Virus record (IMG/VR): IMGVR_UViG_3300037189_001020
Span: 1-23,591 of that record
Strand: one strand, 5' to 3'
Origin: a virus
DNA length: 23,591 bases
Under the pieces are notes generated by a model. The model was not told the origin of the DNA and did no database searches. It was given only the letters and a program-made list of their open reading frames with translations. Position 1 is the stretch's first letter. Every line of letters begins with the position of its first letter. The position numbers were made by a program, and so were the translations under genes. This document shows positions 14,247 through 20,445 of the stretch, one piece after another.

Positions 14247-14492
14247 ATGGACAAGAAACACCTAGAAATGTTAAAGTCGGCTTTGCGCCATTTTGCTTTA
14301 ACGGCAATTGCTTTATACGGCGCAGGGGTAACAGACCTAAAGGCACTTGCATTTGCTACAGCGGCGGCTATTGTTGGACCCGCTATCCGCGGAATTGACA
14401 AGACTGACCCTGCGTTTGGGCTTGTTGCAGATGTTGTTACAAAAGAAATTAACAAACTAGCCAAGGCAGATAAAAAGAAAACGGCTAAGTAA
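14247..14492 (+). CDS. Holin-like small membrane protein
   Basis: An 81-residue protein two bases after the endolysin stop, with AAGGAG upstream. Two hydrophobic stretches (about residues 14-26, and 31-50 with LKALAFATAAAIVGPAI) precede a charged C-terminus (INKLAKADKKKTAK). Size, topology and position fit a holin. The protein at 13554-13790 is the other candidate, and the two may act together. The gene is followed directly by a terminator. Confidence 0.7.
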   Translation: MDKKHLEMLKSALRHFALTAIALYGAGVTDLKALAFATAAAIVGPAIRGIDKTDPAFGLVADVVTKEINKLAKADKKKTAK

Positions 14493-14499
14493 TAAAAAG

Positions 14500-14524
14500 C
14501 CCCGCTTCGGCGGGGTTTTCTTTT
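14500..14524 (+). terminator. Strong intrinsic terminator after the lysis cassette
   Basis: CCCCGC (14500-14505), loop TTCG, GCGGGG (14510-14515), then TTTTCTTTT. A run of A precedes the stem, so it may also work leftward. It ends the late (virion and lysis) transcript. Confidence 0.95.
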
Positions 14525-14807: not shown

Positions 14808-15046
14808 ACGATATTCTTGACGAACGACAAATAGAGTATGGCGATGCGCTAAGTAACTTTACGACCATTGGAATTGTATGGGGTGCGCTCTTAGGTATTA
14901 AAGAAATACCGGCATATCAAGTAGCCTTAATGATGGACACCCTCAAAACTGTGCGGCTATTTAATAACCCTAGTCACGAAGACAGTTGGTTGGATAAACA
15001 AGGTTATATCCAACACGGAAAAGAGATAGCAAAATATGAGCATTAA
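14792..15046 (+). CDS. DUF6378-like phage protein
   Basis: An 84-residue protein with the conserved order LDERQIEYGDALSNFTTIG, IWGALLG-type helix, AYQVALMMDTLKTVRLFNNP and DSWLDKQGYIQHG. This matches the small DUF6378 family, widespread in phages and of unknown biochemical role. The acidic and His positions (YGDA, SHEDSW) resemble those of small nucleotide-handling helical proteins, but that link is a guess. It overlaps the upstream gene by 16 bases and the phosphoesterase by 11. Confidence 0.7.
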   Translation: MPKELNDILDERQIEYGDALSNFTTIGIVWGALLGIKEIPAYQVALMMDTLKTVRLFNNPSHEDSWLDKQGYIQHGKEIAKYEH

Positions 15047-16070
15047 AGACCGATTTGACGAATTACCTGAAGGCATTGAGTCTTCAGATGTAGTTGAATT
15101 GCGCAATGCTCTTATCCGGACACAGAAACAATTACAAAAAACCAAACAACGAACTGACGAATTAGTAGAAGTTACACAGACAGCCGCTTATGACGCAATG
15201 TTATCTATGGGCAGAATCCCACCGGTGCGAGATGTCGTACCAGATAAAAGAAAAGGTAAGCCAGAGGTTGCGTTATGGCACATGACGGATTGGCAGGGCG
15301 CAAAACACACGACTTCTTATAACAGCAAGGTTATGCGCGAGCGCGTATTAGATTTTGCTATTAAGGCTGTGCGCATTACAGAAATTCAAAGAGCCAACCA
15401 CCCAGTAAAAGATTGCACCATAATGTTTGGTGGCGATATGGTTGAAGGATTATTTAACTTTCCAAGCCAAGCCTTTGAGATTGACTCTACGCTATTTGAG
15501 CAATATGTAAATGTGTCGCGGCTCTGCGTTGATGTAGTTCGGTATGCCCTCTCTAACTATGAAAAGGTAACAGTAGTGCCGGAGTGGGGCAACCACGGGC
15601 GTATAGGTAGCAAGCGTGACAATGTGCCGCGCTCGGATAACTTTGACCGAATGTGCTATGAACTTGCCCGCCAACTACTTCAAGGAGAAAAGCGGTTGGT
15701 GTGGCAAGAATGCCCCGAAGATATACAAAGAGTGCAGATAGGCAATTACAAAGCGTTGCTAATTCATGGTGATGAAGTAGGGCGAAATGGCTTTGCTAGT
15801 CCGGGTGCAATAGTCCAACACGCAAATCGTTGGAGAAGCGGTGCATACCCTTGGGATTTCCGAGATGTATATATTGGTCACTATCACACCCACGCAGAAT
15901 GGGCTATGGCTAATGGACAAGGTTCTGTTTATCAAACCGGTAGCACAGAGAGTGATAATAGATATGCCGGAGTGATGTTAGCGGCAAGTGCTACACCATC
16001 ACAACGACTACATTTTATTGACCCCGATAAAGGCAGAGTAACGGCGGCATACAAGATTTGGCTTGATTAA
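15036..16070 (+). CDS. Calcineurin-like metallophosphoesterase
   Basis: A 344-residue enzyme with the dimetal phosphoesterase motifs in order: Asp85 in HMTDWQGAKH (Gln at the usual His position), Asp134 in FGGDMVEG, Asn186-His187 in WGNHGR, His244 in IHGDEVG, and His282/His284 in GHYHTH. An N-terminal coiled-coil (residues 20-50) precedes the domain. Phage members are probably nucleases or phosphatases in DNA processing. The substrate cannot be told from sequence. It ends the first group of the right half; a promoter module starts four bases after its stop. Confidence 0.85.
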   Translation: MSIKDRFDELPEGIESSDVVELRNALIRTQKQLQKTKQRTDELVEVTQTAAYDAMLSMGRIPPVRDVVPDKRKGKPEVALWHMTDWQGAKHTTSYNSKVMRERVLDFAIKAVRITEIQRANHPVKDCTIMFGGDMVEGLFNFPSQAFEIDSTLFEQYVNVSRLCVDVVRYALSNYEKVTVVPEWGNHGRIGSKRDNVPRSDNFDRMCYELARQLLQGEKRLVWQECPEDIQRVQIGNYKALLIHGDEVGRNGFASPGAIVQHANRWRSGAYPWDFRDVYIGHYHTHAEWAMANGQGSVYQTGSTESDNRYAGVMLAASATPSQRLHFIDPDKGRVTAAYKIWLD

Positions 16071-16155: not shown

Positions 16156-16174
16156 AACAGGCAGAAAATGCCCC
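16156..16174 (+). promoter_or_regulatory. Conserved 5' leader hairpin, copy 1
   Basis: AACAGGCAGAAAATGCCCC: stem GGCA (16160-16163) with TGCC (16169-16172), loop GAAAA. It begins at the predicted transcript start and ends 20 bases before the ATG at 16195. An ATG inside the hairpin (16168) is in frame with the gene. Confidence 0.7.
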
Positions 16175-16194
16175 AAACGGAAGGAACACGCAAA

Positions 16195-16566
16195 ATGACA
16201 ACACTAAGACAAACAGTTACAGTTGCAGAAATTGCAGAGATGGCACACCGCGCAGGTATGGAAGCGGGTAACCGCGTTATACCTACACCAATGGTAGTTG
16301 TAGATGGCAAAACCGAGCAGGTAGTAGATGTTGTAGATGACGGACTTTGTGGATTTGCTTGGGTCACAATTCGCCCAGCACGAGGCGCATTTGTCAATTA
16401 TCTCAAGGCTCGCGAGTGGGGTAGCCCCGGTTATAACGGCGGGTGGGAAATTTGGGTTAGCAACTTTAATCAGTCAATGACCCGCAAAGAGGCTTACGCA
16501 AGAGCATTTGCATCAGTCTTACAAAATTATGGCATCAACGCTACCGCAGGGTCAAGGTTGGACTAA
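16195..16566 (+). CDS. Conserved phage protein of unknown function
   Basis: A 123-residue protein; ATG 16195 follows GGAAGGAA and the leader hairpin. The N-terminal helix (VAEIAEMAHRAGMEAGNRV) is followed by DDGLCGFAWVTIRPARGAFV, GYNGGWEIWVSNFNQSMTRK and EAYARAFASVLQNYGINATA. The CGFAWVTIRPA and QSMTRKEA stretches recur in many phage proteins I know only as hypothetical. It is the first gene of a separately promoted unit, so probably early. An in-frame ATG at 16168 could add nine residues but has no ribosome binding site. Confidence 0.8.
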   Translation: MTTLRQTVTVAEIAEMAHRAGMEAGNRVIPTPMVVVDGKTEQVVDVVDDGLCGFAWVTIRPARGAFVNYLKAREWGSPGYNGGWEIWVSNFNQSMTRKEAYARAFASVLQNYGINATAGSRLD

Positions 16567-16568
16567 TC

Positions 16569-16769
16569 ATGGCTATCGTTGCCAAGAATTATAAATGCTG
16601 GAGATGCGGTAGAAAAGAACTTATGTTCCCATTATGGGTTGATATGTATGGCAAAACTTGTATGGATTGTATGGATAAATTAGAACGATACAATGACCAA
16701 TCATTCGAAAATAAAATCCGTTTTGCCGAAATGGATAAAATGGCAAATATTGACCGAGGCGATTTTTAG
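16569..16769 (+). CDS. Small zinc-finger-like protein
   Basis: A 66-residue protein two bases after the previous stop. Two Cys pairs (CWRCGRK near residue 10, CMDCMDK near residue 31) fit a zinc-binding treble-clef or ribbon fold, followed by a charged helix (NDQSFENKIRFAEMDKMAN). The partner is unknown; nucleic acid or protein binding is possible. Its 3' end overlaps by four bases the 3' end of a leftward gene. Confidence 0.7.
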   Translation: MAIVAKNYKCWRCGRKELMFPLWVDMYGKTCMDCMDKLERYNDQSFENKIRFAEMDKMANIDRGDF

Positions 16770-16852
16770 ATTGGATTATCTAAAACGGCATCAACAGCAT
16801 CATCTATTGACCAAGAATGCTCTTGAGAGCAAGACCCACAATCCTTACACAT
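16766..16852 (-). CDS. Leftward 28-residue Cys protein MCKDCGSC
   Basis: On the minus strand ATG at 16852 lies within the last eight bases of the gene at 16845-17087, and the frame runs to a TAA at 16766: MCKDCGSCSQEHSWSIDDAV and a short tail ending DNPI. Three Cys in the first eight residues plus a His resemble the MCLECGC start of the rightward 38-residue protein at 1044. The overlapping start suggests translational coupling. Function is unknown and so small a gene needs experimental support. Confidence 0.5.
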   Translation of the reverse strand: MCKDCGSCSQEHSWSIDDAVDAVLDNPI

Positions 16853-17087
16853 CTTCTTCTTCATCATCATCACCGGCATCAACCTCACAGTCGCAGAAAT
16901 CCATAGAGCGAATATCTACGCCCTGCTCTTTTGCGATAACCATTGAGGTTGCTAATAATTCCTTGGCGCGATTAGATAAATCGGTTAATTGGTCAGGGTA
17001 TGACGCCTCTTGTTCTATCTCTACATACAAGCGGTGCAAAGAAATAACGACTCTACCTATAGGTAGTGCTTTTGGTGGTTGGCTCAT
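16845..17087 (-). CDS. Leftward protein with acidic C-terminal tail
   Basis: An 80-residue minus-strand frame: KALPIGRVVISLHRLYVEIE, a helix LTDLSNRAKELLATSMVIAK, DIRSMDFCDCEVDAG and an acidic end DDDEEEDV. It reads like a folded protein, while the rightward frame through the same bases is a low-complexity Ser run made by the acidic codons. The ribosome binding site is weak (GGCAGA region before the ATG). It is divergent from the gene at 17215 across a 127-base gap. Function is unknown; the acidic tail could bind a basic protein or mimic DNA. Confidence 0.6.
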   Translation of the reverse strand: MSQPPKALPIGRVVISLHRLYVEIEQEASYPDQLTDLSNRAKELLATSMVIAKEQGVDIRSMDFCDCEVDAGDDDEEEDV

Positions 17088-17104
17088 AGATAGATTCTGC
17101 CATC

Positions 17105-17177
17105 AATTACAAAACTTTTTCGCGCCACGCCGATTAAGTTCCCAAAATTATGTAATTAGTGTGGCAAGGTAATACCC
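17105..17177 (+). promoter_or_regulatory. Divergent intergenic region with degenerate promoter module (copy 3)
   Basis: The rightward side keeps GTAATT (17152-17157), 20 bases before AACAGG at 17178, plus AAGGTAAT near the -10 place, but no clear TTGACA. AATTAC (17105-17110) puts the same hexamer on the other strand toward the leftward pair. Both sets of genes (17087 leftward, 17215 rightward) must start here. No convincing leftward promoter was found. Confidence 0.5.
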
Positions 17178-17196
17178 AACAGGCTCACAAAGCCCC
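17178..17196 (+). promoter_or_regulatory. Conserved 5' leader hairpin, copy 3 (compensatory change)
   Basis: AACAGGCTCACAAAGCCCC: stem GGCT (17182-17185) with AGCC (17191-17194), loop CACAA. Compared with copies 1 and 2 the closing pair changes from A-T to T-A on both sides, which supports a paired RNA structure. Confidence 0.7.
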
Positions 17197-17214
17197 AAAC
17201 AGGAAGGCAGTAAA

Positions 17215-17787
17215 ATGGCAGGTAGTAATTTTGACCTAGAATCCTATGAGACAGTTGACGAAAGACTCCGTAGGCTTTATACCCAGTTCCCTGATGCAAG
17301 AGTTATTACGGACTTAGTATTCCAAGACGAGCGCAGGTTCGTTATGAAAGCGGAACTGTATCTTGACCGCAACGACATGACCCCAGTTGCTACAGGTTGG
17401 GCAGAAGAAATTGTAGGCGTTGGATTTATCAACAAAAATAACGCCCTTGAGAACTGCGAAACCTCATCAATTGGTCGTTGCATAGCCAACTCGGTTTTAG
17501 TTCTTGGAGTGCCGGAAGGCAAACGCCCATCACGACAAGAGATGGAAAAGCAAGACCGATACAAAGACACACCACGCAAAGCCCCAGCAACTCCAAAGGC
17601 AAAGATTGAATACACGCAAGACCAAATAGACAAAGCCACAGCAATTATTAGCACTATTGCATCTATTGACGATGTAGAAGAACTGCGCCGTATTTGGGCT
17701 ACCGAAACCGAGATACTAGATATTCCGGTCAATAAATCTACACTCAAAGATGTAATTAACACTCGCGCAAAGGCACTTGTTAAGTGA
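17215..17787 (+). CDS. Erf/Rad52-like single-strand annealing protein candidate
   Basis: A 190-residue protein; ATG 17215 follows CAGGAAGG. The N-terminal domain (ETVDERLRRLYTQFPDARVI, then RRFVMKAELYLD and MTPVATGWAEE) leads to NALENCETSSIGRCIANSVL at about 76-94. That resembles the ENxETSAxGRAL motif of Erf, DUF1071 and Sak-type annealing proteins. The C-terminal part (residues 125-190) is a helical domain after a Pro/Lys linker. Expected role is recombination or ssDNA handling during replication. The RusA and nuclease genes of the same unit fit this. Confidence 0.6.
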   Translation: MAGSNFDLESYETVDERLRRLYTQFPDARVITDLVFQDERRFVMKAELYLDRNDMTPVATGWAEEIVGVGFINKNNALENCETSSIGRCIANSVLVLGVPEGKRPSRQEMEKQDRYKDTPRKAPATPKAKIEYTQDQIDKATAIISTIASIDDVEELRRIWATETEILDIPVNKSTLKDVINTRAKALVK

Positions 17788-18880: not shown

Positions 18881-19047
18881 GCGATATAACAAAAGTTGTA
18901 AATAAACTTATGGAGTTTGGATACACAGATACACAGGCACTTAAAATAGCCAAAGAGATAGAGTCAAATCTTAATGGATACACAAGACAATTAACAAAAA
19001 TAGAAGAAATAAGAAAGGTTGTAACCCGTGTCCGAACAAGAAATTAA
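18877..19047 (+). CDS. Small helical hypothetical protein (56 aa)
   Basis: Starts in an ATGA overlap. It has MSDITKVVNKLMEFGYTDTQ and ALKIAKEIESNLNGYTRQL, followed by a basic end (KVVTRVRTRN). The first 35 residues resemble a small UBA- or HTH-like helical bundle, but no family is recognised. It overlaps the next gene by 20 bases in another frame. Confidence 0.55.
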   Translation: MSDITKVVNKLMEFGYTDTQALKIAKEIESNLNGYTRQLTKIEEIRKVVTRVRTRN

Positions 19048-19186
19048 CCCTGCTATTGGTGAGGCATTTTGGCGAGCCATTTTTACTGGAGAATTACTCA
19101 AAGAAAAAGCAAGCCTTCAACCATTAACTACTGAACAAGAACTTATATTTGACCGAGCCATTACAGTTGTGAGAGGAATCAAATGA
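19028..19186 (+). CDS. Small hypothetical protein, GTG start (52 aa)
   Basis: GTG 19028 follows AGAAAGG at a suitable distance. The 52 residues (MSEQEINPAIGEAFWRAIFT, GELLKEKASLQPLTTEQELI, then FDRAITVVRGIK) are helical and amphipathic. The stop overlaps the next ATG (ATGA). It fills the gap between two better-supported genes, with coding-like composition. Function unknown. Confidence 0.6.
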   Translation: MSEQEINPAIGEAFWRAIFTGELLKEKASLQPLTTEQELIFDRAITVVRGIK

Positions 19187-19389
19187 GCAAAGCACAGAAA
19201 GTATTAGACGATTTACGCATGAGCCTAGAAGAAGAACGCTATTTATTAACCGAAAAATACTGGCGCACTTTAATTGCATCAGAGATTACATCAGGTTTTA
19301 TGCCGAAATGCGTATGCGAGAACTGCGGAACAATCCGCGAGGGTGAACTAATTGCTCGTATTATAGAAAGAGTTACTAATGGTCGTTGA
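19183..19389 (+). CDS. Small Cys-containing hypothetical protein (68 aa)
   Basis: A long helix (KVLDDLRMSLEEERYLLTEK, YWRTLIASEI) is followed by KCVCENCGTIREGELIARII. The close-set CVCENC could bind a metal or an Fe-S cluster with a partner. The ATG lies in an ATGA overlap after GAGAGGAA. It overlaps the nuclease gene by 11 bases. Function unknown. Confidence 0.65.
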   Translation: MSKAQKVLDDLRMSLEEERYLLTEKYWRTLIASEITSGFMPKCVCENCGTIREGELIARIIERVTNGR

Positions 19390-20056
19390 TATTAAAGAGA
19401 TGTTAGCCAAAGCCGTTACGGCTTATGACGGACAGCGTGACCGCTCTAAGCAGGTCAAGATTGGACCAAGTGCTATTGGCGGTTGCAGACGGCGCGTGTA
19501 TCACAACATTATGCGCACCCCAACAACCAACGATACGAGCATGAACTCGTTGCCAGCCATTATGGGAACTTATATTCATGCCGGTATTGCAGAAGCAATT
19601 ACTCGCGAAGACCCATTCGGCGATAATTTTCTTATCGAACAACAGTTTGAAACAGAAAAGATTACAGGCAACATTGACTTATTTATCAAAGACATTGGAT
19701 TAGTTATTGATTGGAAAACAACTAAGGTAAAGTCAATGCGTTACTCACCAAGCAAATCTAATATCTACCAAGTGCAGGTATATGGTTGGATTCTTGAGCA
19801 AAATGGTCACAAGGTCAATGAGGTTGCGCTTTGTTATATTCCGCGTGACGGAGATATTGCAGACATTAGGGTTCACCGAGAGGCTTATTCAGAAGAAATT
19901 GCTCTTGAAGGACTTAAGTGGCTTGACGAAATTTACAATATCGTGGATGCTAGCGCGCAACCCCCAGCACCCGAAGAAAAAGTATTTTTTTGTTCTAGAT
20001 ATTGCTCATATTACGACCCGTCAGGAGAGATTGGATGCCCAAGTATCACCAAGTAG
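19379..20056 (+). CDS. PD-(D/E)XK exonuclease with Fe-S cluster cysteines (Cas4/RecB-like)
   Basis: A 225-residue nuclease. Motifs in order: IGPSAIGGCRRRVYH with Cys36, His67 in GTYIHAG, Asp100 in GNIDLF, Asp111 and Lys113 in VIDWKTTK (the D-xK core), and Gln131/Tyr135 in YQVQVY (QxxxY motif). Cys205, Cys209 and Cys220 near the end pair with Cys36 as four likely 4Fe-4S ligands, as in Cas4 and AddB. There are no Cas neighbours and no repeat array, so it is a phage recombination or replication exonuclease, not CRISPR adaptation. The start has a weak ribosome binding site; coupling by overlap is likely. Confidence 0.85.
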   Translation: MVVDIKEMLAKAVTAYDGQRDRSKQVKIGPSAIGGCRRRVYHNIMRTPTTNDTSMNSLPAIMGTYIHAGIAEAITREDPFGDNFLIEQQFETEKITGNIDLFIKDIGLVIDWKTTKVKSMRYSPSKSNIYQVQVYGWILEQNGHKVNEVALCYIPRDGDIADIRVHREAYSEEIALEGLKWLDEIYNIVDASAQPPAPEEKVFFCSRYCSYYDPSGEIGCPSITK

Positions 20057-20445
20057 ATTGGGATAAGGCAGAGTGCCTAGGTGTCTACACCGATTTGTTC
20101 TTTTCCGTAGAAGAAGAACGAAGCACACAGGCATATATGTATATCAATGCTGTCCGGAGCATGTGTGCGAGATGCCCTATCCAATTTGCGTGTTTATCTT
20201 ATGCATTTGCGCATGAGGGTTATGGTGTATGGGGCGGGCTTACTAGTCCGGAAAGATTATCTATTCACGACAAAGACAAGTATCCATTACAAAGAGCCAG
20301 AGCATTAAAGGCATTAGAGATTTATGGAATCACACTAGACAGAATTAGGGAGGCTTATGAGCATTCGCGTAATGACGGAAGTTTGGAAAACGAATCTGCC
20401 AACTACAGAAAAAATGGTGTTATTGGTAATAGCAGACCACGCTAG
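20035..20445 (+). CDS. WhiB-family Fe-S transcription regulator
   Basis: A 136-residue protein. Four cluster Cys are present: Cys14, Cys44, Cys47 and Cys53 (CARCPIQFAC), followed by the family signature G-VWGG at 64-68. WhiB proteins bind a 4Fe-4S cluster and the principal sigma factor and occur only in actinobacteria and their phages. ATG 20035 follows AGGAGA, so the longer frame from 20002 is not used. It probably steers host or phage transcription. It overlaps the nuclease gene by 22 bases and the replication gene by 89. The C-terminal part beyond about residue 105 is polar and shares its bases with the next gene. Confidence 0.9.
   Translation: MPKYHQVDWDKAECLGVYTDLFFSVEEERSTQAYMYINAVRSMCARCPIQFACLSYAFAHEGYGVWGGLTSPERLSIHDKDKYPLQRARALKALEIYGITLDRIREAYEHSRNDGSLENESANYRKNGVIGNSRPR

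Follow-up and report, generated by a model that had tools for sequence, protein, structure and literature searches.

Small genes lying on the opposite strand beside a divergent region are a known kind of arrangement. ArdA and Ocr are acidic DNA-mimic proteins with an anti-defence function. In cluster K mycobacteriophages, start-associated sequences form an element that is repeated just upstream of phage start codons. T7 Gp2 is described in the available parts of two reports as a small phage protein (7 kDa) that acts on host RNA polymerase (PMC5569994, PMC3709561), and the available part of a survey of phage proteasome-like proteins (PPH and AAH) reports that no Actinobacteria-specific phages with the AAH type were found (PMC8665760). 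Freshwater actinobacteria have abundant phages, of which very few are in culture; an ardA homolog has been reported in Planktophila phage E7, and the hosts of isolated 'Ca. Nanopelagicales' phages encode restriction enzymes and lack CRISPR (PMC10202952).

The locus described here lies in a viral DNA of 23,591 nucleotides (IMG/VR record IMGVR_UViG_3300037189_001020; this whole stretch is called the window) and consists of two minus-strand genes, m80 and m28, named after the lengths of their products. As far as the available descriptions of T7 Gp2 go, m80 resembles it in size, in being the product of a phage that looks lytic and in a candidate mode of action, the binding of a host machine; it differs in that no sequence relation was found and in that T7 Gp2 is not encoded by an opposite-strand gene. 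Like ArdA and Ocr, m80 is small and strongly acidic (net charge -7 to -15 in all members of its family); unlike them, it carries its charge mainly in a predicted disordered tail and matches no family. New here are the m80 family, the fact that it is near-core and keeps its orientation, the microprotein that accompanies it and its alternation with a proteasome-like gene.

The leftward gene pair

The features of the locus, in window coordinates, are:
15036..16070, plus strand: left flank, a calcineurin-like nuclease (phrog_284 exonuclease), used to find relatives
16195..16769, plus strand: two extra genes (123 and 66 amino acids) between the left flank and the pair
16766..16852, minus strand: m28, 28 amino acids, beginning MCKDCGSC; its start codon overlaps the end of m80
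16845..17087, minus strand: m80, 80 amino acids, acidic (pI about 4.1), with a predicted beta-beta-alpha core at residues 10-54 and a predicted disordered, D/E-rich tail
17088..17214, no strand: divergent control region, 127 bases between m80 and the rightward gene, its plan conserved in relatives
17215..17787, plus strand: right flank, a phrog_11717 protein with an ENCETSSIGR motif, the first gene of the rightward unit

The coordinates, strand, lengths and eight-base overlap of the pair (16845-16852), the MCKDCGSC start of m28 and the acidic tail of m80 (GDDDEEEDV in the window copy) are all as given in the initial annotation, which had also described the pair as isolated in a rightward genome and facing a divergent control region. 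A codon-usage gene caller gave 41 rightward genes and one leftward gene, m80 (m28 was not kept); homologs in relatives are likewise on the minus strand, and the control region is conserved there. The ~39 kb relatives that were examined, each in two halves, have 60 to 75 genes, of which m80 alone or almost alone lies on the opposite strand. One relative (G005, C1 about 18887-19878; L188) has another two such genes, of 92 and 170 amino acids, and short, low-scoring opposite-strand calls were seen in a few relative pieces.

Spurious minus-strand frames in the window reach 176 amino acids, so that the length of m80, which they exceed, is not significant in itself, and relatives were therefore compared. 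Pairwise dN/dS of m80 has a median of 0.07 (pooled, 0.08), and 2468 of 3239 differences fall at third codon positions. Stop codons in the minus frames of relatives had been named as grounds for dismissing the pair; the m80 frame is open, each of the other five frames across it has a stop in 94 to 96 of 96 unique coding sequences, and the pair stands. For m28, dN/dS is about 0.14 (45 loci). Both m80 and m28 are real protein-coding genes under strong purifying selection. Long spurious frames do occur on the minus strand of this window, but the probability that the pair is among them, or that the rightward frame 16693-17172 (159 amino acids) is the real gene, is vanishingly small, being already refuted by the dN/dS, the third-position bias and the closed alternative frames; since this comparative evidence favours m80 and m28, the 16693-17172 frame was rejected as spurious.

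The m80 family and its microprotein partner

Searched alone against IMG/VR, as a single protein by short exact peptides, m80 found nothing. Relatives were found through the calcineurin-like nuclease of the left flank, which recovered hundreds of IMG/VR contigs; in the best 80, which were kept (80-96% identity), an m80 homolog occurs at the same place, on the strand opposite to the nuclease, in 59. A 17-member m80 alignment matched 203 stretches in IMG/VR, of which 80 were kept. The collected set comprises 140 m80 loci and 84 distinct sequences, some contigs having been fetched by both searches, and its members are metagenome contigs of unproven completeness. The gene is single-copy in all 16 long relatives.

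Family members are 59-81 amino acids long and share the core V-x-I-S-L-x2-L-x-V-E-V-E...Y-P-D-Q...D...N-R-A...D-I, followed by the acidic tail. M1, P31, D32, D36 and R40 are invariant in 52 diverse members, and the acidic tail is kept in all 84 distinct sequences (net charge -7 to -15, pI 4.05-4.43).

No m80 match was found in 50,697 named phages searched with three family members. Bacterial genomes searched with one member or a sub-alignment gave no relative, and hence no prophage or host copy was found. PADLOC (a defence library) and NCBIfam yielded no significant family across 52 members, nor did PHROGs and Pfam across 17, and no helix-turn-helix or other DNA-binding family in Pfam, PHROG or NCBIfam matched above cut-off. 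Weak matches of single members, such as that to HPr (E 0.003 in two of 52 members), were disregarded. Solved structures searched by sequence gave nothing below E 0.03, the best being a designed protein. The initial statement that no known family could be recognised thus holds for curated models, named phages and structures, none of which returned a homolog of known function. Judged by sequence, m80 is the founding member of an undescribed protein family, present in more than 100 related viruses and without a curated family.

AlphaFold2 with family alignments gave a beta-hairpin followed by a long helix in two diverged members (mean pLDDT 78 for the window m80 and 89 for that of L028), with a low-confidence tail; the predicted protein is a beta-beta-alpha unit whose acidic tail is disordered. 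Such units, when they stand alone and are of this size, often form dimers through the sheet. Foldseek against PDB and viral models found no match below E 0.001. With VIA-align the best hit was Gon7-Pcc1 (Z 4.5), followed by ribosome hibernation factors, all within the chance range, and the second, more confident model had no structural match at Z 2 or more. Lsr2, found in actinobacteria and actinophages, was considered for its beta-beta-alpha domain; one weak Foldseek match was to its dimerisation domain. Although both contain a short beta-beta-alpha stretch, m80 lacks the C-terminal DNA-binding domain that follows a basic linker in Lsr2, and its tail is acidic; the comparison with the Lsr2 N-terminal dimerisation profile gave no sign of a relation (hhalign probability 0.2%, 15 columns), and kinship is unlikely.

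The second gene, m28, is present at 45 of the collected loci, always behind m80 and never without it. In 42 of 44 measured relatives its ATG and the m80 stop share one base (TAATG or TGATG), and the eight-base overlap of the window is therefore the exception. The geometry is one of coupling, and translation of m28 is probably coupled to that of m80. Across 14 aligned members C2, C5, G6, C8, H12, D17 and D21 are invariant; C2, C5, C8 and H12 make up a ligand-type pattern, C-x2-C-x2-C-x3-H, which suggests metal binding. Variant members in L021 and L133 begin MAYNDGDC and are without the C-C-C-H pattern. In L006 and L011 a different 27-amino-acid frame (MSEAGYSDTWLETDDLRIVAVQSNQIL-like) follows m80 in the place of m28, which suggests that this second position is exchangeable.

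Occupancy of the leftward slot

Both flanks are present at 68 of the 80 nuclease loci. At 42 of these the slot holds m80 alone, at 14 a leftward m80 with a rightward HslV-like gene, and at 12 a leftward HslV-like gene without m80. A leftward gene is therefore found in 68 of 68 and m80 in 56 of 68; with these counts and no empty slot, m80 belongs to the near-core genes of this group. The initial annotation had taken the pair for accessory genes, of the kind serving superinfection exclusion, anti-defence or host takeover. Such roles may be considered for m80, but the label accessory is only partly apt and suits m28 better than it does m80. Of the relatives, only L002 was found to have both of the extra genes at 16195-16769, and only L003 to have just the first; the 66-amino-acid product has two CxxC pairs, and its gene overlaps the m28 stop tail to tail. 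The right-flank phrog_11717 protein is, on our own reading only, an ERF/Rad52-like recombinase.

The HslV-like protein matches phrog_1040 (E 1e-18 to 2e-27, five members) and PF00227 (E 8e-12 for L060, weaker for others). It has about 175-200 amino acids and an N-terminal TT(I/L), with T1 and D17 aligned to those of proteasome beta subunits. In its phrog_1040 and PF00227 matches, its N-terminal TT(I/L) and its size it resembles the phage proteasome-like proteins PPH and AAH, whereas a leftward position next to a control region is not described in the available part of the survey of those proteins (PMC8665760).

Where both are present, m80 and the HslV-like gene are tail-to-tail neighbours. Among 35 non-redundant HslV-like genes, all 24 with m80 run with the nuclease and all 11 without m80 run against it. 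Their tree, in which there are long branches, requires at least two orientation changes, a single leftward clade being rejected (AU p = 0.0005). Where a long m80 genome lacks the neighbouring HslV-like gene, the rest of the genome has no copy either; the records with no m80 in the slot, many of them short, likewise yielded none at another place. Searching with the HslV-like protein brought in two new contigs of the same synteny (L209 and L210), in both of which the gene is leftward and m80 is missing, as predicted. In a different phage group the HslV-like gene follows the portal gene, lies among head genes in the direction of its neighbours and is not accompanied by m80. As a general rule, 'HslV-like rightward only with m80' fails in that second group, and the orientation rule is therefore local to the m80 synteny.

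The control region and possible roles of m80

Three elements of the control region are referred to below:
17094..17099, minus strand: CAGAAT, a candidate -10 read by eye and not statistical, ending 6 nt before the m80 ATG
17123..17131, minus strand: GGCGTGGCG motif upstream of m80, the only copy in the window
17182..17194, plus strand: hairpin GGCT-CACAA-AGCC in the rightward leader; CCCAAACAGGAAGGC (17194-17208) and the ATG at 17215 come after it

Of 45 non-redundant regions upstream of m80, 25 contain GGCGNGKC[GT], where 0.5 would be expected and 200 shuffles gave three at most. Further copies of TTGGCGAGTCG, tandem doublets included, were seen in two relatives (L194:9743-9763, 14815 and 16598; L191:5233-5243), and the repeated copies are possibly an operator-like element. 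As a -10, CAGAAT would give a leaderless m80 transcript; its case is one of conservation and position, because a consensus scan found promoters no more numerous than in shuffles. 'TTGTAAyynrTGGC' is not claimed as a mark of both divergent promoters, since its spacing differs between clades.

The rightward leader hairpin ends about 15-20 nt before the start codon of the first gene of the rightward unit, and its stem sequence varies between relatives with pairing kept. Over 55 non-redundant leaders, with many stem sequences and A-rich loops, the best stems exceed dinucleotide shuffles by z = 10.6, a value that speaks for hairpins in general, as the search was free to choose the best stem per leader. 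The shared position of the different stems points to one conserved leader element. Two plus-strand copies of the pattern (short hairpin, CC(C)CAAAC-GGAAGG, start codon) are found in the window, at 16160-16184 and 17182-17208; the former precedes the gene at 16195 and has TTGACA-18-TATCTT upstream. Rfam gave nothing in the window. The element is like the start-associated sequences of cluster K in being repeated just upstream of start codons, and unlike them in that the stem sequence varies with pairing kept and that no shared consensus has been established. An almost perfect inverted repeat flanked by T runs (14496-14519), after a rightward gene ending at 14492, is a candidate bidirectional terminator.

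A WhiB-family gene (20002-20445; PF02467, E 5e-13) makes an actinobacterial host likely, probably among the freshwater actinobacteria. The 'Ca. Nanopelagicales' phages in culture share the genome size and WhiB, and their G+C content is similar (PMC10202952); the link to them is circumstantial, and their genomes are not in the searched collections. No integrase (PF00589 tyrosine, PF00239 serine) was found in 16 records, the window among them; these records may be incomplete, and controls matched. The m80 phages thus look lytic, lysogenic immunity is unlikely, and so is a role of the pair as a lysogeny repressor module.

The reading that we favour, with a probability of about 0.42, is that m80 is a separately promoted, early-acting small protein that binds a host or phage factor. 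The pair would be its own leftward transcription unit in a probably lytic phage, and m80 would bind a protein of the host or the phage early in infection, its acidic tail perhaps contacting a surface that is basic or binds nucleic acids. In this way it may modulate host transcription, defence or proteolysis while the divergent rightward replication and recombination genes are expressed. Only part of the family has m28; its product, probably a metal-binding microprotein, would be translated from the m80 message, coupled to m80. This reading draws on the selection on both frames, the single copy, the strand isolation, the conserved GGCGNGKC[GT] region, the universal acidic tail, the beta-beta-alpha models, the lack of an integrase and the always-occupied leftward slot. 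Against it, m80 has no homolog of known function by sequence or fold. Phages have small acidic proteins of many sorts, and 'host modulator' is therefore a generic description. That a single-copy gene has stayed reversed across deep divergence strongly suggests a control function; should the family bind a host machine, it would represent a new phage inhibitor, and if it does not, the case shows orientation selected apart from the protein.

The acidity of every m80 member, and its place in a small gene that seems to be separately promoted, would also suit an anti-defence DNA mimic, expressed from a promoter of its own immediately on entry and blocking a restriction enzyme or similar host nuclease, the more so as the hosts of 'Ca. 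Nanopelagicales' phages encode restriction enzymes and lack CRISPR (PMC10202952). Such a role is possible but unlikely: no PADLOC, PHROG, Pfam or NCBIfam model matches, the acidity is predicted to sit in a disordered tail rather than being spread over a folded surface, and a gene directed against a single defence system would not usually be present in nearly all members of a group. We also doubt that m80 switches the rightward replication genes on or off, perhaps jointly with m28 or the WhiB-like protein, as a timer of the lytic cycle rather than as a lysogeny repressor. Its position directly beside the divergent promoters, the conserved motifs of the control region and the WhiB-like gene at 20002-20445 are consistent with this, but m80 contains no helix-turn-helix or other DNA-binding family, its net charge of -7 to -15 speaks against direct contact with DNA, and in m80-less relatives the leader hairpin and promoter-like motifs remain although the slot holds a proteasome-like protein.

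The alternation of m80 with a proteasome-like gene is a concrete, falsifiable lead on the role of the slot. The leftward transcript or promoter may itself be selected, for instance because divergent supercoiling keeps the rightward promoter active or because read-through from the genes on the left is opposed, with the protein interchangeable, since all 68 relatives with both flanks have a leftward gene, be it m80 or the unrelated HslV-like gene, and the latter is leftward only where m80 is missing, after at least two independent switches. This is improbable, as both proteins are under selection as proteins, the HslV-like gene of other phages runs with its neighbours without m80, and the switches are few. 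Alternatively, both proteins may serve host or phage proteolysis, m80 by inhibiting or redirecting a host protease and the HslV-like ring protein likewise where m80 is absent; sharing of one slot, tail-to-tail neighbourhood and the proteasome-type N-terminal TT(I/L) and D17, kept by alignment, point this way. We regard it as highly improbable, because 14 loci carry both genes, no protein link between the two is known, and the HslV-like gene of the other group, between the portal and the next head gene, suggests a head protease. A broader form, in which the slot is a dedicated, never-empty early locus where m80 (with or without m28) and the proteasome-like protein substitute for one another, m80 being a proteolysis modulator or leftward transcription the selected function, is distinctly unlikely.

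The place after the portal is the usual site of the head maturation protease, and the HslV-like protein of the portal-adjacent group might serve as one. In this group, phages of ~39 kb, the gene stands right after the portal gene, which follows the terminase gene (L231:2201-4986 and similar loci in L213-L235). Proteasome-like genes were also seen in WhiB-type phage relatives, at L028:1269-1796, L012:3059-3589 and L060:1959-2558.
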